Shown: piece after piece, positions 8,709 through 25,293 of the stretch
How the letters are laid out: the number at the start of each line of letters is the position of its first letter
How positions within the stretch are numbered: position 1 is the first letter of the stretch
Source of the DNA: Planctomycetota bacterium
Lineage (GTDB): Bacteria; Planctomycetota; Phycisphaerae; Sedimentisphaerales; Anaerohalosphaeraceae
Assembly: GCA_019456225.1 (NCBI GenBank)
Contig: VRUI01000054.1
Span: 1-32,835 of the forward strand
Length of the DNA stretch: 32,835 nucleotides
Direction of reading: 5' to 3'
Translations under genes and position numbers: made by a program
Notes under the pieces: generated by a model
Told to the model about the DNA's origin: nothing
The model's database searches: none
What the model saw: the letters and a program-made list of their open reading frames with translations, nothing else

Positions 8709-10481
8709 GTGAAATTTTCGTTAAAATCAAAGATTAATATGAAACAGACAAAAACCGCAAATGATTTGCAGCCGCAAGCTATGGTCTCAGTAAATAGCCT
8801 GCCGGAGTTTCTAGTTGAGGCGAAAAATGCTGTCGAGGCCGGCGATCTGGTCAAAGTCGAAAGTATTCTTTGTGAAAACGCAGTGGAACGAGTTTGCGAT
8901 ATACAGGATGTTGGTTCAAGGGTGTTGGCGCTTTATATGCTTGCATCGCTGTTTCGTAAAATTAACCAATTAGATTTAGCCGAAAAATGGAACAAAAAAA
9001 TCCTTGAGTATGGCGAATATAGTTTTGCATATAACGAGTTGATCGGCATTTGCAAGGATAGATGTGATTTTGTAGAAGCTGTAGAATACGGAAGCAAAGC
9101 ATTGAGTTTCGATCCGGACAATCCGAAGTTGTTATCTGCCCAGGGCAACGGACTGATCTTGACCAGCAGGATAGACGAAGGTGTCGCAATGCTGCGGAGG
9201 GCAGTCGAAATTGCGCCGCAGGATGCGGGGATTGGAACATGGCTTTTGTATGGCCTGCATTATAAACCTGACATAACGCCCCAAATTCTTTTTGAAGAGC
9301 ATAAAAAGTGGGTTAAGAGACATGTACCGACGACTACGGTTGGAGCGAGTTACGGAAATTTAATCGATCCCGATAAAAAGCTTCGTATAGGGTATATTTC
9401 GCCGAATTTTCGGCGGCATTCTGTCATGTATTTCTTTGAACCTCTTCTTGAGTGCCATAACCGTGCGACAGTCGAAATTTATGGATATAGCAATTCAGAA
9501 ACAACAGATAGTCTTACTGAACGAATGAGGCCGCAGTTTGATAATTTCAGTGATATCAACGAGATGACAGATGAAAAAATCGCCAAGATGATCATTCGTG
9601 ACAAAATTGACATTCTTGTAGATTTGGCAGGTCATACCAGCAATAACAGTCTTCTTGTTATGGCAAGAAGACCAGCTCCGATACAGGTTACATATCTCGG
9701 ATATCCGGACACCACCGGACTTGAACAGATAGATTATCGGATAACAGACGAATTGGCCGATCCGCCCAAGCTTCATAAATATTACACTGAAGAACAGGTG
9801 TGTCTTCCTGATGGTTTTTTATGTTACAGACCCCCGGAATTTGCTCCGGCGCTGATAGAAAGTCCATGGATCAAAAATGGCTATATAACGTTCGGTTCGT
9901 TTAATATAAACGCAAAAGTCAACCTTGATGTTATAGCCATTTGGGCTCGGGTATTGAAGGGTACTGAGAATTCTCATCTATTGCTCAAGCTTGAAGGTGG
10001 GGATTGCGAGCAGTTGCAAGATCATTATCGCAATCTTTTTCAGCAGCTTGGAATTGAGCGAGACAGGATAGAAATATGTGGTCGAAAATCAGCGGTCAAG
10101 CATCTGGCGATGTATGGGCAGGTGGATATCAGTCTGGATTCATATCCGTATCATGGCACAACTACTACATGTGAAGCTTTATGGATGGGGGTGCCAATTA
10201 TTTCTTTGCTTGGTGACCATCATTCGTGCAGGGTGGCTCTGAGTCTGCTCAAGCGTCTTGATTTGGACTATTTCGTTGCATCGAGTCAAGAAGAATATGT
10301 GGCGAAAGCTTGTGCACTCGCGGCAAAGCCAGATGCACTTGCAAGGATACGGTCTACTATGCGAGCAAGAATGGCCGCAAGCGATCTATGCAACGGAAAA
10401 CTTATTGCCGCAAATATCGAAACCGCTTATAGAAAAATGTGGCGTAAATACTGCAAGTCACAAACAAATAATGCTTATTAA
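8709..10481 (+). CDS. TPR glycosyltransferase, GT41 (O-GlcNAc transferase/SPINDLY-like)
   Basis: A cytoplasmic protein of up to 590 residues that probably transfers a sugar from a nucleotide sugar to Ser/Thr of proteins, by family. TPR-like helices fill about residues 20-200 (AYNELIGICKDRCDFVEAVEYGSKALSFDPDN and following). The catalytic region starts at about 223 (KLRIGYISPNFRRHSVMYF) and includes DILVDLAGHTSNN, RPAPIQVTYLGYPDTTG and, at about 474-520, the nucleotide-binding stretch SLDSYPYHGTTTTCEALWMG followed by GVPIISLLGDHHSCRV. The catalytic His/Lys positions cannot be assigned without alignment. The start is unsettled: the GTG at 8709 has no ribosome site, and ATGs at 8739 and 8781 are alternatives. 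No neighbouring substrate gene is apparent. A palindromic repeat (copy B) lies downstream. Confidence 0.88.
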   Translation: MKFSLKSKINMKQTKTANDLQPQAMVSVNSLPEFLVEAKNAVEAGDLVKVESILCENAVERVCDIQDVGSRVLALYMLASLFRKINQLDLAEKWNKKILEYGEYSFAYNELIGICKDRCDFVEAVEYGSKALSFDPDNPKLLSAQGNGLILTSRIDEGVAMLRRAVEIAPQDAGIGTWLLYGLHYKPDITPQILFEEHKKWVKRHVPTTTVGASYGNLIDPDKKLRIGYISPNFRRHSVMYFFEPLLECHNRATVEIYGYSNSETTDSLTERMRPQFDNFSDINEMTDEKIAKMIIRDKIDILVDLAGHTSNNSLLVMARRPAPIQVTYLGYPDTTGLEQIDYRITDELADPPKLHKYYTEEQVCLPDGFLCYRPPEFAPALIESPWIKNGYITFGSFNINAKVNLDVIAIWARVLKGTENSHLLLKLEGGDCEQLQDHYRNLFQQLGIERDRIEICGRKSAVKHLAMYGQVDISLDSYPYHGTTTTCEALWMGVPIISLLGDHHSCRVALSLLKRLDLDYFVASSQEEYVAKACALAAKPDALARIRSTMRARMAASDLCNGKLIAANIETAYRKMWRKYCKSQTNNAY

Positions 10482-16857: not shown

Positions 16858-16873
16858 TACGAATTTTTTCGTT
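16858..16873 (+). promoter_or_regulatory. Putative BlaI operator O1
   Basis: TACGAA-TTTT-TTCGTT, a 6-4-6 inverted repeat with one mismatched end base, overlapping the first two bases of the -35 hexamer. It has the geometry of O2, with its centre 21 bp away. Confidence 0.55.
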
Positions 16874-16898
16874 GACATTACGAACGAATTCGTATAAT
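16872..16898 (+). promoter_or_regulatory. Promoter of the blaI-blaR1-gloB operon
   Basis: TTGACA at 16872-16877 and TATAAT at 16893-16898, both perfect hexamers but with a short 15-bp spacer. The spacer is filled by operator O2, so repressor binding would block polymerase directly. Confidence 0.75.
16879..16894 (+). promoter_or_regulatory. Putative BlaI operator O2
   Basis: TACGAA-CGAA-TTCGTA is a perfect 6-4-6 inverted repeat between and overlapping the promoter hexamers. BlaI/MecI repressors bind such TAC/GTA dyads, and the first gene downstream encodes a BlaI-type repressor, so autoregulation is the natural reading. Confidence 0.7.
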
Positions 16899-16939: not shown

Positions 16940-17350
16940 ATGGCACGTCGTAAAGGAAATAATCCTACGGACAGGGAGCTTGAGATTTTGCGTATTTTGT
17001 GGACTTATGGGTCGTGCAGTGTTCGGCGGGTGAACGAATTCGTTTGTCAGGAGTCGGACACCGGCTATACGACGACGCTTAAGTTTATGCAGATCATGTT
17101 AGAGAAGGGGCTTGTTACTCGCGACACTTCTCAGCGGACTCATATATATAGTGCCGCTGCCGAAGAGGCGAATGTGCAAAAGGCCCTTGCCGCCGATCTT
17201 GTTGACAAGGCTTTTGGCGGGTCTGCCCAGAAGCTGGTTATGCAGGCACTACAGGAAAAGCAGGTGCCCCAGAATGAACTAATTAGGATACAGAGGATGC
17301 TCGATGAGCTGGAAGGAGAAGAAAATGATGTCACTTCAAGAAATTCTTAG
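16940..17350 (+). CDS. blaI: BlaI/MecI/CopY-family transcriptional repressor
   Basis: A repressor of 136 residues. The N-terminal winged helix-turn-helix (about 8-75) contains NNPTDRELEILRILW, characteristic of the family, and TGYTTTLKFMQIMLEKGLV as recognition helix and wing; the C-terminal part is helical and should dimerise. In related systems the repressor is cleaved after activation of the partner BlaR1 sensor. The ATG at 16940 with GGAG six bases upstream is preferred to the TTG at 16928. The gene overlaps the next one by 26 bp. It probably regulates its own operon through the palindromes in the promoter. The ligand is unknown and need not be a beta-lactam. Confidence 0.92.
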   Translation: MARRKGNNPTDRELEILRILWTYGSCSVRRVNEFVCQESDTGYTTTLKFMQIMLEKGLVTRDTSQRTHIYSAAAEEANVQKALAADLVDKAFGGSAQKLVMQALQEKQVPQNELIRIQRMLDELEGEENDVTSRNS

Positions 17351-20300
17351 CAGTCCTGTCGCCCAGAGGATCGGGTTTGCGCTTATGCACTCGCTGTGGC
17401 AATGCACTGCGATTGCGGTGTTGTTTGCTGTTGTTATGCTCGCTTTGCGGAATCGCCGGCCCCAGGTGCGCTATAATGTTGCGATCACGGCCTTGCTGCT
17501 TATGGTGATCGTTCCGGTTATTACGGTTTTTGCGGCAAGAGTTGACGACCAGACGCCGCCTGCGGCGGTTGTGGAAGAGCCTGTTGCGCCGGCGGCCCTG
17601 GTGGAACCTGCCGAGGTTGTTAAAGGAGGCGAACTGCCGGTAGTTGAAACTTCTGTAGTGTTTCCAGATGCCGATGTGGCCGATGTGGCGGTCGTTTCTG
17701 AAAAAGATGTTGCTGCTGCAAACTCTGCAAGTATTGGTGAGAGGATCGAAATTGTGCTGCCGTATCTTGCGATTGGGTGGATTGTTGGGGTTTTGATCCT
17801 TAGCGTGTGGCATCTTGGCGGTTGGGCGCAGCTTCGCAGGCTTCGGAGGGTTATGGTAAAACCTGTGGAGGAGTATGTATCGGAAAAGCTCGCACTGCTG
17901 GCACAATCGCTGGCTGTCAAGCGAACTGTAGAAATAGTCGAGTCGGCGCTGGTGACGGTGCCGACGGTTATCGGTGCGCTTAAGCCTGTGATCCTTTTGC
18001 CGGCTAGTGCGCTTACGGGGTTGTCGACCGAGCAGCTTGAAGCGATACTGGCTCACGAACTGGCGCATATCAAACGCAATGACTATCTAATGAACCTGAT
18101 CCAGACGGCTATCGACATACTCTTGTTTTATCACCCGGCTGCGTGGTATATTTCGCGGAAGATCAGGAACGAGCGAGAAAACTGCTGCGACGATATCGCC
18201 GTGCAGGTCACCGGCGACAGTCTTAAATACGCCAGGGCGCTGGCTACTATGGAGGAAATAAAAGCGGCCAGCAGGCGTCTTGCCGTTGCCGCTAGCGGAG
18301 GGAATTTGTTTGACAGGATATCGCGGATTGTATCAAAAGAAGAAAAGAAACAAAAAATACACGGCTGGCTGACTGCGGCAATAACGATAATCATAGCCGC
18401 GGCAATTACGATACCGGCAATGGTAGCTGTCTCTGCAGAAGCGAAAGATATCAAGACAAACTTAACAGTTACAGGAACAGTAACAGACGCTCAAACAGGT
18501 AAACCGATCCAGGGCGCAAAGATCTCTGATAAAACATATAATGGTGGAAACCAAGGGGCAGTTTCAGATGCGAAGGGAAAATACTCTTATCAGACCTGGT
18601 ACGAAGAGCATAGTGTAATCACAAAGGCAAAAGGTTACGAGTCTCAAACAAAAACTCTCAAAACAAAACTTGTCGGCTCAGAAAAAGAAGTGTCAATAGA
18701 TTTCCAACTACAACCGGAGAAAACCTCTATACCACCATCACCGTTCAAAGCGACTTTGGCTAATGGCGTTGAGTTGGAGCTAATTGGTCTTTGTGCCAAT
18801 CCCAGCACGGGTAAGCAATGGTGGAGGCCGGATGGTTCTGTCCTTAAAGCAAGACCGTATGATAAAACCCCGTGCACTCATGTTGGTCCTCCAGTCTATT
18901 ACGATTATGTCTGTCGTCTTACTGGTGGCGAAGATTTACAGTTAAAAAAGAACCAGGCCGGTTGTGGCCCGAGCCGCCTTAGCGAAAGAGGCGTGAATAT
19001 CAACCTCCCGGATCAGGACAGTCTTTATCATTGCACTCTTCAAGACTACAATCGCTTAAAACAGACGGATCTCACTTTGCTTGTTGGCAGCGAATCCAGC
19101 TGGAAAACTGTAACGAGCATGGATTCTCCGTCTGAGGTCGGAATGTCAACTATCGACAATGTAATAATAATGCCGCCGGTAGAAAAAAATGCTGTGACTT
19201 ATATCGACGTAGTTGCTTCCAGAGTAGATGAGCAGTTTCGTGTGATCGCGATAGATAATAATGGTAAAAAGTATGTTGGAGGAGGCATGTCCTGCGGCGG
19301 CAACCTGGGCTCGGCCAAAGTTATATCTATCAGGGCGCAATTCCCTCTACTCATTGCTAATATTAAATCGATAGAATATCAAACCCAGAAATTCATCCCG
19401 GTAACCTTCAAAAATGTCTCACTAAAACCGGGCCACAAAACCAAAGTGGAAATTGACATTGCCCCGACAAAGTCAAAAACGCCGTCGAGAAAACCTGGAA
19501 ATGCTGACATGTCTAAGGTTGGCCTTCTAGGTTATAGGTTTGCCGACAGCTCCACCGTAAGAAGTGCGCTGGAACTTGTGAGTAAGGTTGGCAAGGTAAA
19601 TATTATCCCCTCGGAGCAAGTCGATTTGACAGCTGCGCTGCCGTTTACGAGCCTTTACGATGTAACTTTCGAACAAGCCCTGCAAGCCGTTATCGGCAAA
19701 AACAAGTTCGTCAAAGAAGGCAATTTTATCAAAGTATACACCCCCGAAGAATACGCCGCGCTTTACGGTTTCGATCCGGTAAAGGCTAAGGCAAGTCTGA
19801 AGGTTGTTGAAGGTATTTACAGCTCGGTTGATGGCATTGAATTTGGAAAAGATACTGCCGATTATGCACTGAAAACAATGAAGAGTGCTTTGGAAGAACT
19901 AAAGTATCTTACAGACAACTCTAAAGGCACTCCGTTTCATCCGCTTGCTTCCGGTTTGTCGGAAAGCTGGAACAATACAATCGAACAACTCAGCAAGGGC
20001 AATTACAAAAAAGCAAAGATCTTTTTCGAGACCATAGGCGACTTTGGAAATAACGCAGGAAATGTACTTATAAAAGCGGTCGAGGAAAAGATGAAAGCCG
20101 CATCGACCCAGCCGGCGAAAATTACAAAAACTACAACTACCGCCAAAGCCGCCCCAACAGAAAACCCGCTGGATATGAAGATAGATTTCTCGTTTGTTAA
20201 AACAGACACGACTTTCGAGGAAGTTGTCAAATACATACGAAGTCAAAGAACACCGCCTCTGCAGATCGTGGTGCTCTGGTCGAGTCTGTCGGACATTGCT

Positions 20301-23300
20301 TTTGTAGATCGCGATTGCACTGTTAATATTGATGGCCTTGGCACAACAACTCTTAAGACCGGGCTGGCACTGATATTAAAAGCAATATCCAGTCCCGAGG
20401 TAGGATCGGTGGTATACGAATATCAGGATGGGATAATAGCGATATCAGCAAAGCAGCGACCTAAGTCTCCAGCCCCTGCCGCCGAAGAAAAAGCGAAATA
20501 TGCGACCTTTGTCTGTGGACCGGATGGGTTGATACTTGGCGGCAAGAAGATTGAAAATCCCGAAGAGATTCTTCCTGCTATGAAATTGATCGAGGATAGG
20601 GAAAATACGATCTTGCAGGTAGTTCCTTCTAAGGAAGGCTTAGAGTCTGATGAGTGGAATGCCAACAAAGCCACGATAATTGCCTGGAGCAAAGAGGCGG
20701 GATTTAAGGATGTTGTGTTTGTCGATCCGGATCAGGAACCGAAAAAGTCTGTTGGTCAGCCGGTTTCTGCTGTCGATAAGAATACGAAATACGCGACCTT
20801 TATTGGTACTGATGACGGTGCGTACTTGTCCGGCAAAAAGGTCAAAAGTTTCGATGATCTCTCGCCTATGATCAAGGCGCTTGACGACAAAAGCAATACC
20901 ATCCTTCAGATTGTCCTTACAAAATCAATGACGAAAAGGGATGATTGGGGAATGATCAAAAATAGTCTCATGGCCTATGCCAAAGAGTATGGCCTCAAAG
21001 GCGTCGAATTTGTTGATCCGAAAGCTGAAACAGAAACTCCAGCTCCGGTGGCCGATGAGAATACGAAATACGTTAGTTTTCTGGTGGACGAAAACGGGGC
21101 TTATTTATCCGGCAAGAAAATTGAGAGCTTCGAGGGACTTGCGCCTGCGATCAAGGCGCTTAAAGACCGGGGAAATACGATCCTGCAGGTTGTTCCGACT
21201 AAAGAAGCTTTGCAGGGAGAACACTGGAACATGATCAAAAGTTCTCTGCTGGCGTTTGGCAAAGAGTTTGGACTTAAGCAGGTTGTCTTTATTGATCCGG
21301 ACGCTGAAATCAAAAACACCGCAGCACCCGATGATAAGAATGCTAAACACGTAACACTGCTATGGGGTAGTGGAAGTGCGTCGCTAGCCGGTAAGAAGAT
21401 TGAAGACGTCAAAGAGCTCATCGAGGCCTTTAAAGAACTAAAGGACAGGGCCAATACGATCCTGCTGGTTACCCCAACAGAGGAAGTCCTTAAGGATAAA
21501 AAATGGGCTTCCATGAGACATATGGCAATAGCCTGGGGAAAGGAATTCGGATTTAAGCGAGTCGCGTTCACCAACGAAGACACTATAGACAAATCCAAAG
21601 CTGCTGAAATAATCGGCAAGTGGGCCAGGGCGTTGGAGTTTTTTGATCTTGACGTGATTGAAGGGTTGATTGCTTCCTGTAATGAACAGACACTTTCAGC
21701 GTTTTTTTTAATGAGTCCAACCGGCGGTAAGGTTCGTCCGGTACCTGAGATTAAAGGGGATCCGGTAATTCTGAAAATCACAAAAATAGGTGACGGAAGG
21801 TACAGGGTGCTTTCGCTTACTATAGATAAAGAGCTTAGCTATTACCTTGTTAATAATCTCCTTATCAAAGACGGTGCTGTTAAGGTAGACTTTGATCTCA
21901 ATGCGCAGGTGAAAAAAATGCAGGACGTTCGGACCATGTCGGCTTCAGAGTATGGCGAAAGGCTCATGAAAGAACAGTTTGCCAGCTGGAAAAACGCCGA
22001 AGGCAAAGAACTTGCTAAACTCTCAGAAGAAATGATCCAGAAAATAGATGACAGAATTATTGCAGCAGAGTATGCCGAAAAAAACAAAATAAAAATCGCA
22101 GGCGCCTCCAATACTAACACAGCCGAACTCCGGGCAGAAAAGAAAAAGCTCGAAAAGATGACGCCAGTCCAAATTCGGGATATGGTTCTAAAAGAATTCA
22201 ATGAGTTTCTCCAACAGTATTCAAATACAAAACCCGCTAAAGCACCCGATACTCCAGATGATTCGAATATGGCCCATACTAATAACAGCAGTGCCGATGA
22301 TTCCAAACCTTTGAAGTTTCTTTCCGGCATTCGGGAATTTAAAGATTTGCGGCTGAATATTACTGAGCAGGCTTTGCGCAGGCATTTACATACTTATTCG
22401 ATAGCGGCAACTTTTATCGAACTCGACGACTCTGTGGTCTATCATCTTTACACCGAGAAAGGTGAAAATGTTTTTGTTACTTTCCGCCAGGGAGAGTGTG
22501 CGGGTATTCAACGTATGCGAAAGGATCTTGGTGCCGCCGCCAAACTTCATAAACACTGGCACACCGACCGGGGAAGCGCCGGCGGTATGTATTTTGAGGC
22601 GTGTAGGTTTTACTCTGAAGGCGGCAAACGCCCGGAAGCGGTCAAGCGGTTTTTCAAGGTAGCTGATCTTTCACCGGCAACCGAGTATGGAGCAAGGGCA
22701 CGCGAGATTGCCCGGCTGCTTATTGATATGAAAGGAGAGAAAAGACCGGTGCAAAAAGTTTCCAAACATGACGTAACTATTACGCTTGAGCAGCATTTTG
22801 AGAGTTTGATATTTGATCTTCGTGATCTTTCAAGAAACGCATATACGATCCCCGGCAAATGTCGCGTACTTTTTCTTGCTGATAGTTCCAATCCCGCGAT
22901 GGGGCTAAAAAAACTTGCCGAAAACCCCGGCCCAGATGGACAACTGGTTATTAGGCGGTTAATTAATATGCTCGATGATCCGAGACCGACTCGTTCATGG
23001 GCAGGTGCAATGAATGGCGGTCACGTTTACCGCAACTGTGACGTTGCGCTCGAGATACTTTCGGTTCTCGCCGACAATACACTGCCTACGATGGAATTAT
23101 TCTTTGACAGACGCAGCGGAAGGGATTATTACCTTGGCAACGCCGACAACAAAACAAGAAAAGAGATCATTGCTAAAGTTAAAGCATGGTACGCCAAAAA
23201 TCGAGGAATTGATCCGGCAAAACCATCTGCCGGTAAAGTCTCTGATGCAAATGTCAACCATAGTAATCTCCCCGAAAAGATCACTTTCACACTTGTCGAC

Positions 23301-24578
23301 GAATCCGGCAAACCGGTCAGTGGTGCGGCAATCGGTAATCATTTTTATCCTTACGGTAAAGCGATCGGCGGAAAACCAAGGTTGATATGGGCCCGCGGAG
23401 TCCATAACACTACGGGCGTTGAGGGTAAGGTAACTGCCAGAATGATCGATATGTTTGGGAAGTATTTTCGCGATGACAGAAAGTTCGAATTGTGCGTTTA
23501 TGATGAGTCGCGAAAGCTCGGATACTGGCAGAAATTGTCCCGGTCTGAAATGACCGCTGAAATGACTCTCGAGCTAAGTCCGGTTTGCCGGGTTCGTGGA
23601 GATTTTATTTGTAAAGGTTATGACCGAAAAAACGATTGGTATTTAGATGCGAGCATGGAACTTGGCTGTAATGGTAAGCGGATCTTCAGTAATAATGCCA
23701 GGAGAGATGACTTCGATCTTCTTTTGTTTGCCGGAAAATATTACATTGATGCGACAGGCATTGTATATAACGAAGAACTCTCATTGGAAACAGGCAGGAA
23801 AAGAATCGAGTTTGAAGTTAAAGAGGGGCAGCATGAACTTGAGCTTAGAGACATCGATCTGCCTGTCAGTAAGATCGCCGGGCTTGTCGGCAAACCCGCA
23901 CCGAAACTTGGACCTGTAAAGTCATGGCATAATGGTGACGCGGTTAAGCTTTCCGTTCTTAAAGGCAAAACTGTCCTGCTTTACTTTGGCGGTGATTCGG
24001 CATCTGCAAGTGGTTTGAACAGGCTTGTGAACCTGCACAATGAGTTTGCCGAGCATGGACTTGAGATCCTTGTTGTATATAATGCTGATAACATGGCGAG
24101 TTTGCAGGAAACGTGGAAAGAAGATAACAAGCCAGCAGCTGATTTCATGAAAAGGATGGAAAAAGCTCATAAAAGCGCAGAAGAAATGCTTAAAACTTCA
24201 GGCAGAAAAATCCCAAAACGAGATGCGCCGACAAAGTACTATGGGCCAAATGAAGTTCCTTTCAGGGTTGCTATTGACAGCGGGGTGGGGAGTGTTTATG
24301 ATGGCGGCGATGTGGTCCGGCGAGATTCGACATACCAGGTATTCGGAATAGAACGCAAAACGAGTGTTGTTCTGATCGATAAGGAAGGTAAGGTCGTGGG
24401 CAATTTGAACTTAAATGACGCTGACGCTCGTGAAACAATAGCTCGTATGCTTGGTGTTGAAATTGAAAAAAAGGCTCCCAAGAGCGGACCGGGCAACGAA
24501 ATACCGCAATGGCCCAAGCCGGTTATTTACTCAATGTCGGGTACAGGCTCACGAAAGCTTGCAGCTATAAATGGATAA
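17325..24578 (+). CDS. Giant BlaR1-type M56 metallopeptidase fusion protein
   Basis: A 2417-residue membrane sensor, about four times the length of BlaR1. Transmembrane helices lie near residues 15-40, 45-70 and 140-165. The M56 peptidase has HELAH at 244-248 with the third ligand region ERENCCDD; a last helix is at about 347-370. The exterior part carries a carboxypeptidase-regulatory-like domain (about 379-464), an unknown Cys-rich domain (about 465-725), an STN/secretin-like domain (735-812), a second one (951-1044) and four tandem ExbD/TolR-like repeats starting at 1058, 1155, 1248 and 1341. After further unrecognised helical regions come another beta domain (about 1985-2130) and a thioredoxin-like domain (about 2186-2380) without CxxC. 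No penicillin-binding sensor domain is seen. ATG at 17325 with GGAAGGAG six bases upstream. It should cleave BlaI after a periplasmic signal. Confidence 0.85.
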   Translation: MMSLQEILSSPVAQRIGFALMHSLWQCTAIAVLFAVVMLALRNRRPQVRYNVAITALLLMVIVPVITVFAARVDDQTPPAAVVEEPVAPAALVEPAEVVKGGELPVVETSVVFPDADVADVAVVSEKDVAAANSASIGERIEIVLPYLAIGWIVGVLILSVWHLGGWAQLRRLRRVMVKPVEEYVSEKLALLAQSLAVKRTVEIVESALVTVPTVIGALKPVILLPASALTGLSTEQLEAILAHELAHIKRNDYLMNLIQTAIDILLFYHPAAWYISRKIRNERENCCDDIAVQVTGDSLKYARALATMEEIKAASRRLAVAASGGNLFDRISRIVSKEEKKQKIHGWLTAAITIIIAAAITIPAMVAVSAEAKDIKTNLTVTGTVTDAQTGKPIQGAKISDKTYNGGNQGAVSDAKGKYSYQTWYEEHSVITKAKGYESQTKTLKTKLVGSEKEVSIDFQLQPEKTSIPPSPFKATLANGVELELIGLCANPSTGKQWWRPDGSVLKARPYDKTPCTHVGPPVYYDYVCRLTGGEDLQLKKNQAGCGPSRLSERGVNINLPDQDSLYHCTLQDYNRLKQTDLTLLVGSESSWKTVTSMDSPSEVGMSTIDNVIIMPPVEKNAVTYIDVVASRVDEQFRVIAIDNNGKKYVGGGMSCGGNLGSAKVISIRAQFPLLIANIKSIEYQTQKFIPVTFKNVSLKPGHKTKVEIDIAPTKSKTPSRKPGNADMSKVGLLGYRFADSSTVRSALELVSKVGKVNIIPSEQVDLTAALPFTSLYDVTFEQALQAVIGKNKFVKEGNFIKVYTPEEYAALYGFDPVKAKASLKVVEGIYSSVDGIEFGKDTADYALKTMKSALEELKYLTDNSKGTPFHPLASGLSESWNNTIEQLSKGNYKKAKIFFETIGDFGNNAGNVLIKAVEEKMKAASTQPAKITKTTTTAKAAPTENPLDMKIDFSFVKTDTTFEEVVKYIRSQRTPPLQIVVLWSSLSDIAFVDRDCTVNIDGLGTTTLKTGLALILKAISSPEVGSVVYEYQDGIIAISAKQRPKSPAPAAEEKAKYATFVCGPDGLILGGKKIENPEEILPAMKLIEDRENTILQVVPSKEGLESDEWNANKATIIAWSKEAGFKDVVFVDPDQEPKKSVGQPVSAVDKNTKYATFIGTDDGAYLSGKKVKSFDDLSPMIKALDDKSNTILQIVLTKSMTKRDDWGMIKNSLMAYAKEYGLKGVEFVDPKAETETPAPVADENTKYVSFLVDENGAYLSGKKIESFEGLAPAIKALKDRGNTILQVVPTKEALQGEHWNMIKSSLLAFGKEFGLKQVVFIDPDAEIKNTAAPDDKNAKHVTLLWGSGSASLAGKKIEDVKELIEAFKELKDRANTILLVTPTEEVLKDKKWASMRHMAIAWGKEFGFKRVAFTNEDTIDKSKAAEIIGKWARALEFFDLDVIEGLIASCNEQTLSAFFLMSPTGGKVRPVPEIKGDPVILKITKIGDGRYRVLSLTIDKELSYYLVNNLLIKDGAVKVDFDLNAQVKKMQDVRTMSASEYGERLMKEQFASWKNAEGKELAKLSEEMIQKIDDRIIAAEYAEKNKIKIAGASNTNTAELRAEKKKLEKMTPVQIRDMVLKEFNEFLQQYSNTKPAKAPDTPDDSNMAHTNNSSADDSKPLKFLSGIREFKDLRLNITEQALRRHLHTYSIAATFIELDDSVVYHLYTEKGENVFVTFRQGECAGIQRMRKDLGAAAKLHKHWHTDRGSAGGMYFEACRFYSEGGKRPEAVKRFFKVADLSPATEYGARAREIARLLIDMKGEKRPVQKVSKHDVTITLEQHFESLIFDLRDLSRNAYTIPGKCRVLFLADSSNPAMGLKKLAENPGPDGQLVIRRLINMLDDPRPTRSWAGAMNGGHVYRNCDVALEILSVLADNTLPTMELFFDRRSGRDYYLGNADNKTRKEIIAKVKAWYAKNRGIDPAKPSAGKVSDANVNHSNLPEKITFTLVDESGKPVSGAAIGNHFYPYGKAIGGKPRLIWARGVHNTTGVEGKVTARMIDMFGKYFRDDRKFELCVYDESRKLGYWQKLSRSEMTAEMTLELSPVCRVRGDFICKGYDRKNDWYLDASMELGCNGKRIFSNNARRDDFDLLLFAGKYYIDATGIVYNEELSLETGRKRIEFEVKEGQHELELRDIDLPVSKIAGLVGKPAPKLGPVKSWHNGDAVKLSVLKGKTVLLYFGGDSASASGLNRLVNLHNEFAEHGLEILVVYNADNMASLQETWKEDNKPAADFMKRMEKAHKSAEEMLKTSGRKIPKRDAPTKYYGPNEVPFRVAIDSGVGSVYDGGDVVRRDSTYQVFGIERKTSVVLIDKEGKVVGNLNLNDADARETIARMLGVEIEKKAPKSGPGNEIPQWPKPVIYSMSGTGSRKLAAING
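20496..21590 (+). repeat. Four tandem coding repeats (ExbD/TolR-like) within the M56 fusion
   Basis: Units start at 20496, 20787, 21066 and 21345 (spacing 291, 279 and 279 bp). Each begins KYATF/KYVSF/KHVTL, has DGAYLSGKKI-like and NTILQVVPTK-like segments, and ends with a G-x-K-x-V-x-F-x-DP strand. This matches the strand-helix order of the periplasmic ExbD/TolR domain. Proline/alanine-rich linkers separate the units, which have diverged at the DNA level. Confidence 0.75.
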
Positions 24579-25293
24579 CGTAATTACAATTGAGGCTTTT
24601 GGGGACAATTATTTTTATTTGTTTGTCTATGACCAAACCAGCGCTGTCGCTGTTGACTGCGGTGATTGCCGTGGTATTCTTAAGGTCCTGAAGTCTCGAA
24701 ATCTCCGGCTTGACGCGGTGCTGATAACACATCATCACTATGACCACGCCGCCGGGTCCAAAAAACTCAAAAAGAAAACCGGCTGTAAAATCATAAGCCC
24801 TGACCAAAAAAGAATCGCCCAGACAGATCAGCTGGTTGCAGATGGTGACATCCTGGATTTCGGAACCGAAAAAATACGAGTCATCGCAACGCCTGGGCAC
24901 ACTGCATCGTCTGTGTGCTATTATGTCGCCCCTTCCGGCGCGAATACCGGCGGGATGCTTTTTACAGGTGATACATTATTTATCGGCGGGTGCGGGCGAA
25001 TCTTTGAGTGCGGCGCAAAAACAATGTGGCAGTCGCTGTCATCGCTTGCCGATCTGCCGGACAACACGCAGGTCTATCCCGGCCACGACTACACGCAGGA
25101 AAATTATCAGTTTGCCCTGACGATAGACCCTGAGACCGAACCTCCGAAAATGCCGTCGACAATGGCCTATGAAAAAAGATCGAACATCTTTCTGAGGTCG
25201 GACGATCCTGAGATCAAAAAAGCCTTAAAAATGCCGGGCGTCGGACCCGATGAAATATTCGGAACGCTTCGATCAAAAAAAGACAGATTCTAA
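24571..25293 (+). CDS. gloB: MBL-fold hydrolase, glyoxalase II-like (hydroxyacylglutathione hydrolase)
   Basis: A 240-residue binuclear metallo-beta-lactamase-fold hydrolase. Metal ligands are all present: HHHYDH at 54-59 (His54, His56, Asp58, His59), His110 in ATPGHTASS, Asp134 in FTGDTLFIGGCGRIFE and His172 in PGHDYT. The GGCGRxFE segment and C-terminal length are typical of glyoxalase II, which hydrolyses S-lactoylglutathione, though other thioester substrates are possible in a planctomycete that may lack glutathione. Its ATG overlaps the end of the giant gene (ATGGATAA), so the two are translationally coupled and belong to one operon. It is convergent with the GT4 gene, 46 bp away. Confidence 0.88.
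   Translation: MDNVITIEAFGDNYFYLFVYDQTSAVAVDCGDCRGILKVLKSRNLRLDAVLITHHHYDHAAGSKKLKKKTGCKIISPDQKRIAQTDQLVADGDILDFGTEKIRVIATPGHTASSVCYYVAPSGANTGGMLFTGDTLFIGGCGRIFECGAKTMWQSLSSLADLPDNTQVYPGHDYTQENYQFALTIDPETEPPKMPSTMAYEKRSNIFLRSDDPEIKKALKMPGVGPDEIFGTLRSKKDRF

Follow-up and report, generated by a model that had tools for sequence, protein, structure and literature searches.

A 2417-residue M56 protease with a BlaI-type repressor partner in a planctomycete: a probable surface sensor for a cue other than penicillin

The stretch of DNA analyzed here, referred to as the window, comprises 32,835 nucleotides (nt) and is the entire contig C107 of a Planctomycetota genome of the order Sedimentisphaerales (4.45 Mb, 152 contigs, 95.8% complete; GenBank assembly GCA_019456225.1, contig VRUI01000054.1). 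A single open frame on its plus strand (17325-24578) encodes an M56 receptor of 2417 amino acids (aa), the start of which is overlapped by a BlaI/MecI-type repressor gene. Judged from the sequences of its core and of its partner, the protein belongs to the M56/BlaR1 protease family. At the cell surface it probably senses a cue other than penicillin, and it is considered likely that it acts with BlaI as a BlaR1-type signal-transducing protease that senses an envelope cue through its exterior part.

The M56 core was found at 17685-18272 (+; Pfam PF05569, E 2.3e-32) and contains a HELAH motif (18054-18068, +; residues 244-248 of the receptor). The best solved relative of the protein was BlaR1 of Staphylococcus aureus (E 2.7e-8). 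In the alignment, HELAH was placed on His201-His205, Asp253 on Asp210, and ExxxD on Glu242-Asp246; in the cryo-electron microscopy study of BlaR1, the catalytic and active-site residues include HEXXH, ExxxD, Asp210, Tyr261 and Arg294 (PMC9834060). For comparison, 71 M56 frames were collected, namely seven from the window's own genome, four from other loci, and 60 from further regions, which were chosen for open frames of at least about 1,120 aa among the matches listed, with G012 in addition; G070:C1:558064, G077:C27:7608 and G121:C310, which are of similar size, were left out. The set consists of giants by choice, and counts drawn from it are not rates. Seventy of the frames carry HEXXH; L055, a 452-aa M56 fragment without this motif, belongs to the 71 and not to the 70.

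Residues H244, E245, H248, R251, D253, E285, D289, Y302 and R331 were each invariant in all 70 HEXXH-bearing proteins, as were P271 and W274, and R284 was conserved in 60 of the 70. From order and spacing, Y302 and R331 plausibly correspond to Tyr261 and Arg294 of BlaR1. Hydropathy analysis yielded membrane-helix-like stretches at residues 23-41, 52-70, 143-161 and 351-369, which are plausible places for helices, and a fifth hydrophobic stretch at 207-225. No such stretch was found after residue 369 in the receptor, nor beyond residue 480 in any of the 70 proteins; everything beyond residue 480 therefore lies on one side of the membrane, which would be the exterior if the topology of BlaR1 holds. 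Penicillin-binding or transpeptidase families were not found in the receptor at E<=1 in the Pfam scan, by which the protein is not recognizable as a BlaR1 beta-lactam receptor. A first-pass annotation of the window had described an M56 HELAH protease with about 2000 exterior residues in one frame and without a penicillin-binding sensor, and both statements were borne out. It had overlooked the blaI gene with its palindromes, the WWRPDG module and the overlapping gene downstream, all treated below.

The repressor gene (Penicillinase_R, PF03965, E 2.5e-24) is located at 16940-17350 (+). The receptor gene has an alternative ATG at 17304, upstream of that at 17325, in the same frame and with the same stop at 24578. 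Solved relatives of the window BlaI were MecI, which was closest, and BlaI. By sequence, repressor and receptor form a complete BlaI/BlaR1-type pair, and the pairing is general: the genome harbors seven M56 genes and seven BlaI genes, every one in an adjacent pair, and a BlaI gene was located at most 600 nt upstream on the same strand in 65 of the 71 M56 frames. One of the six frames without a counted upstream BlaI, L021, does have a BlaI partner. Pairwise identities of the BlaI proteins and the M56 cores correlated at 0.937 over 65 pairs, a value reached in none of 2000 permutations, and point to co-inheritance of both.

Two palindromes, ACGAATTTTTTCGT (16859-16872) and ACGAACGAATTCGT (16880-16893), were detected in the promoter/operator region (16859-16893, +). 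Both are perfect ACGAA-N4-TTCGT sites and overlap a TTGACA (16872-16877) and a TATAAT (16893-16898) hexamer. Sites with one mismatch were searched in the window only, where five were counted against 1.3 expected and none of 100 shuffles reached five. Of these sites, three lie at or inside blaI, with a third palindrome (one mismatch) at 17034-17047 within the gene, and two are away from it. Perfect sites were searched genome-wide; the four others are all inside open frames, so that the evident BlaI target would be the blaI-receptor operon, perhaps including an overlapping glyoxalase-II-like gene. A wider regulon of the window BlaI through this motif was unsupported, as the genome count was 6 versus 7 for the reversed control.

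Six of the seven own blaI promoters had dyads of the TAC...GTA type with arms of 6 bases, and the seventh (L024) shows, by eye, an ACGAC-N4-GTCGT dyad. The half-sites differ among most of these pairs: the window has TACGAA, and L023 and L024 share TACGAC. Among 69 BlaI upstream regions, 41 contained a TACA-N2-TGTA dyad, and no 4-base dyad occurred more than five times in one shuffle per region.

The glyoxalase-II-like gene (gloB; metallo-beta-lactamase fold, PF00753, PF16123) is located at 24571-25293 (+). Its ATG falls inside the end of the receptor gene (8-nt overlap), and the gene is possibly translationally coupled, in the same operon and co-regulated with the receptor. The window pair resembles BlaR1/MecR1 with BlaI/MecI of Staphylococcus and Bacillus in the M56 catalytic residues, the adjacent repressor gene, the promoter dyads, and a long C-terminal part that is presumably exterior. 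In contrast to these systems, its exterior comprises about 2,000 residues of other modules, and no beta-lactamase or penicillin-binding protein target was recognized beside the receptor, where gloB is present instead.

The coding signal of the receptor frame was assessed in eight blocks of 302 residues. When compared with seven other window genes, all eight showed a closer codon-usage match in the receptor frame than in the remaining forward frames or the antisense, with a fit of 0.355 in the first (membrane) block and 0.578-0.706 in the other blocks; the antisense fit over the gene reached up to 0.441. Third-position G+C content was 0.57 over the first 300 residues and 0.42-0.49 thereafter, and no stop-free run longer than 220 codons arose when the mononucleotides of the window were shuffled 50 times. 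The frame looks coding throughout, real and functional. That the protein is a fusion of separate genes produced by assembly or annotation, which the first-pass annotation had named as a finding that would refute its reading, is extremely improbable: the codon statistics gave no sign of it, and besides the window receptor there are 69 HEXXH-bearing M56 frames of 921-4128 aa, six of them from the same genome.

Large M56 fusions, recorded for planctomycetes in the first-pass annotation, are frequent in the order: 126 of 159 genomes gave M56 matches at E<=0.001, with 114 over the cut-off, and M56 open frames reached up to 4134 aa among the matches listed. Relatives in the public genome scan were mostly Phycisphaerae, Sedimentisphaerales and other Planctomycetota. 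Other giants (e.g., L059, L056, L087) have the same core and in most cases a BlaI partner, and differ from the window receptor in exterior order. The order of domains seen in the window was not found in the other genomes searched, and no description of it was known to the first-pass annotation. As far as searched, this combination is private to the window, and giant M56 proteins as a kind are common in the lineage. The best single giant of 64 covered 22% of the window exterior and all 64 together covered 34%. Over 65 exteriors, the best cover by any other giant was below 0.3 in 8 and above 0.8 in 20. No description of giant M56 proteins of Planctomycetota or of the WWRPDG module treated below was located in the open-access literature, in which the motif itself is not searchable.

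Exterior domains of the 70 giants were scanned in groups of 21, 34 and 15, with the 25 commonest families per group listed; a family missing from a list does not equal a count of zero. Carboxypeptidase-regulatory domains were listed in 11/21, 8/34 and 3/15 proteins, PD40 propellers in 13/34 and 2/15, ankyrin in 1/21, 3/34 and 1/15, and TPR in 2/15. AhpC-TSA was present in 5/21, HEAT in 4/21 and LamG in 3/21. Envelope-machine parts were represented by Secretin (PF00263) in 3/21 and in L022, and by SecDF_P1_head in 3/21 and 3/34. Two M56 receptors, L022 (G000:C94, 2727-6155, -) and L057 (1821-6932, -), have the PF00263 match at the C-terminus, and L022 also has a BamE match. On the basis of these family matches, envelope-machine parts are one flavor of M56 exterior among several, because other exteriors carry propellers and carboxypeptidase-regulatory, ankyrin, LamG or thioredoxin domains.

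Some further features of the giants were recorded. In L025, L024 and L026 of the own genome, the linker SDTLNSRSEEK and variants of it recur at the joints between exterior modules, both inside single giants and across different ones, which looks as though modules had been swapped at these joints. The M56 protein of L023 (2463-5228, +; own genome) has 921 aa, with a lysine/alanine-rich exterior and long aspartate runs at its end. In L055 (1-7748), the M56 fragment overlaps a 2160-aa open frame that is read in a different phase and carries WWRPDG modules; the fragment is possibly a broken giant or the result of a frameshift. The largest M56 receptors fetched, L087 (4128 aa) and L097 (3357 aa), have an intact HEXXH and a BlaI gene 54-58 nt upstream.

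Near the membrane, after a carboxypeptidase-regulatory-like domain, lies an unnamed all-beta domain of about 250 residues (residues 470-722; 18732-19490, +), named here WWRPDG after its motif. The window copy matches the conserved pattern LPNGVTVELVG..WWRPDG..QTRPYxWVxFKNVSLKPG. Forty-five copies were found in 32 of the 71 M56 frames, and a search with 30 copies against Pfam and NCBIfam gave no match at E<=0.01. A scan of species genomes with a 13-row alignment yielded 52 loci with 54 module-bearing frames, 41 of which are M56 frames; these loci partly overlap the M56 regions (e.g., L121 and L056), and the fractions 32/71 and 41/54 are not independent. Nine of the 13 non-M56 frames were scanned against Pfam (left out were L155, L162, L158, and the second frame of L147). 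They comprised three serine/threonine kinases (L159, L166, L171), three extracytoplasmic function (ECF) sigma proteins (two in L168, one in L170), one thioredoxin-like and one ankyrin protein, and one without a match. In all six kinase and ECF sigma frames the module is preceded by a membrane-helix-like stretch, as in the receptor; the output domain differs.

In a 64-row tree of the module, the three ECF copies formed one clade. Well-supported branches required three changes of label among the three kinase copies, which is the pattern expected if an input domain has moved between outputs. At least six changes were forced for M56, a number inflated by frames labelled 'other' that may be truncated M56 proteins, some of which end at contig edges. 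In an even sample of the phylum the module was detected at E<=1e-6 in 8 of 294 genomes and is thus not widespread there. L128, a WWRPDG-bearing M56 protein recorded as Anaerolineae, grouped with Planctomycetota copies and may reflect a binning error. The AlphaFold model of the module, calculated from an alignment that left out the second L133 copy because of a failed translation check, is all-beta and confident (predicted local distance difference test, pLDDT, 90.4). Its best Foldseek template modelling (TM) score by query was 0.24 among the 50 matches listed, and the immunoglobulin-like half (model residues 141-219) matched PDB entries with Z up to 7.1, which is within the noise range of VIA-align. 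A lack of listed structural relatives does not indicate a new fold. WWRPDG is best read as a swappable input module, likely a relay or input domain, because as an exterior module it occurs with three different outputs; its context suggests that it binds something.

The remaining exterior was dissected by family searches, identities, and structure prediction. A carboxypeptidase-regulatory-like domain, named in the first-pass annotation, was confirmed at residues 381-462 (18465-18710, +; CarboxypepD_reg, E 7.5e-11). Two secretin N-domain (STN-like) regions were recognized by identity. The first (residues 734-810; 19524-19754, +) shares 45.6% identity with a secretin encoded in the same genome (L052; residues 73-149 of 588), and is also present in L057 among the 71 M56 frames. 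The second (residues 947-1044; 20163-20456, +) shares 39% identity with residues 825-924 (of 1453) of another secretin-family protein from this genome (L053, PF00263). The Pfam STN model gave no match to 19497-20099 or 20157-20579 with E up to 10 allowed; the two STN-like domains of the first-pass annotation are supported by their identity to secretin-family proteins. No secretin ring domain was found in the receptor with Pfam.

Four repeats of 79 aa follow (20496-20732, 20787-21023, 21066-21302 and 21345-21581, all +), for which the annotation had proposed ExbD/TolR-like domains. Against the reference repeat, the other three show 52, 56 and 47% identity, and 19 columns of the alignment are invariant. 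The repeat model (pLDDT 89.5) agreed with the proposal in fold: the four best of 575 Foldseek matches were ExbD periplasmic domains (TM 0.66-0.68, E 0.023-0.045), and VIA-align placed ExbD first (Z 8.2-9.3), followed by pantothenate kinase chains (7.7-8.1) and TolR (5by4, 7.7). The closest ExbD matches are periplasmic domains solved with TonB or a D-box peptide. Sequence comparison with ExbD was negative. Pfam gave no ExbD match (PF02472) for any repeat with E up to 10 allowed, hhalign of the repeats against the two own ExbD proteins, which form a weak two-row profile, gave a probability of 0.1, and the repeat profile had no ExbD among 18 matches to PDB sequences (best UvrA, E 0.0011, over 32 residues). 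The repeats are assigned as ExbD-like by the predicted fold, short of established membership in the ExbD family. Unlike ExbD and TolR, they stand four in tandem in one chain and lack a membrane helix: no membrane-helix-like stretch that could carry the proton-relay Asp of ExbD follows residue 369. The array was found in one of the 294 genomes of the phylum sample, namely the window's own, in a search whose loose first pass limits negative results.

These parts could mean that genuine secretins or TonB/Tol parts face competition for their partners from the secretin N-domains and the ExbD-like array, so that the receptor reads how active or damaged the export or transport machinery is. The resemblance of both STN-like domains to secretin-family proteins of the same genome (46% and 39% identity), the proximity of the four ExbD-like folds to ExbD domains solved with TonB or D-box peptide, and the Secretin, SecDF_P1_head or BamE matches in some M56 giants speak for such mimicry of envelope machines. 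Against it stand an ExbD identity by fold only without an ExbD-type membrane helix, the unrelated modules in the same protein, and the different exteriors of other giants (propellers, ankyrin, LamG, leucine-rich repeats). The parts list allows this explanation and does not favor it over other envelope ligands, and it is held to be rather unlikely. A cell-wall sensor is improbable; in it, peptidoglycan or peptidoglycan fragments would be bound by the TolR/ExbD-like array or by another module, and wall damage would be reported in the way that BlaR1 senses wall-active drugs. TolR binds peptidoglycan and was matched by the repeat model, but ExbD chains match slightly better and nothing else in the protein points to peptidoglycan.

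Two unnamed modules are located downstream of the array. The first (residues ~1421-1626; 21585-22202, +) recurs in L098 and beside the M56 fragment of L055, and the second (residues ~1656-1760; 22290-22604, +) in the giant L059. The C-terminal part (residues ~2189-2359; 23889-24401, +) has weak thioredoxin/AhpC-like Pfam matches below the cut-off. No cysteine is present in residues 2180-2417 and hence no CxxC of the thioredoxin/TlpA type, so that the thioredoxin-like domain of the first-pass annotation persists as a weak resemblance; a motif scan detected WCxxC in three other giant M56 proteins. An end without cysteines would suit an exterior that consists mostly of spacers or adhesive display, in which only the carboxypeptidase-regulatory and WWRPDG part senses. 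This would also agree with exteriors that are often not common to giants, whereas BlaI and M56 cores co-inherit, and with the recurrence of WWRPDG in 32 of the 71 frames. The conserved repeats, with 47-56% identity and 19 invariant columns, suggest selection on the array too, and WWRPDG was not found in the other 39 frames; this explanation is likewise considered doubtful. Apart from the receptor region, a TPR protein with a glycosyltransferase family 41 match is encoded at 8709-10481 (+).

An envelope-sensing BlaR1-type protease remains the preferred reading. The exterior sensor of BlaR1 appears to be replaced, and 'sensor' is the best reading of the new exterior because a BlaI gene is adjacent, the catalytic residues are invariant, and one module also occurs in other receptor classes. 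The first-pass annotation had proposed a sensor of envelope or transport state rather than of beta-lactams; the non-beta-lactam part is in keeping with the results, and the state of TonB or secretin machinery would be one candidate cue among others. BlaI and receptor would be made from one operon, which BlaI would repress at the two promoter palindromes. The exterior of about 2,000 residues would bind an envelope cue, with the WWRPDG module near the membrane relaying or receiving the signal. The bound exterior would then shift the last membrane helices and release the M56 active site, which would lie in the cytoplasm, from the receptor's own inhibitory loop, and the freed site would cut the partner BlaI and derepress the blaI-receptor-gloB operon. 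This sequence of events is modelled on BlaR1, for which an exterior cue that releases an autoinhibited protease and cleavage of BlaI are taken from the same study (PMC9834060).

Several observations have to be set against this reading. The topology of the receptor is derived from hydropathy. Domain-by-domain structure prediction, envisaged in the first-pass annotation, gave an ExbD-like fold for the repeats, but no whole-domain PDB relative of WWRPDG was among the Foldseek and VIA-align matches listed. The half-site of the window operator differs from the TACA type commonest among relatives, A/T-tract dyads also exceed the shuffles in up to 20 of the 69 upstream regions, and the promoter spacer is short (15 bp). 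Finally, the cleavage residues Asn101-Phe102 of S. aureus BlaI are not conserved in the window BlaI and are replaced by Gln-Ala at the aligned place. As these residues are not kept, the specificity of cleavage may be particular to this pair, with receptor matched to repressor. By eye, the putative autocleavage loop and the BlaI segment near the presumed cut co-vary strikingly in a few classes over 66 BlaI/M56 pairs; this agreement was not counted as evidence of specificity because co-inheritance could explain it.

BlaR1 is known as a drug-resistance receptor. Judging by the loci described here, the BlaR1 core appears to be a plug-in proteolytic switch that is combined with many exteriors, and each exterior would be inherited together with a repressor of its own. 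A tentative extension, put forward with little confidence, is that Planctomycetota use BlaI/BlaR1 as a modular sensor platform with WWRPDG as a common input, and that the window member reads the secretin/Ton/Tol machines of its own cell by means of copies of their partner-binding domains. The most transferable finding is WWRPDG itself, which occurs in three kinds of transmembrane signalling protein, is confidently modelled, and can be tested for ligands.

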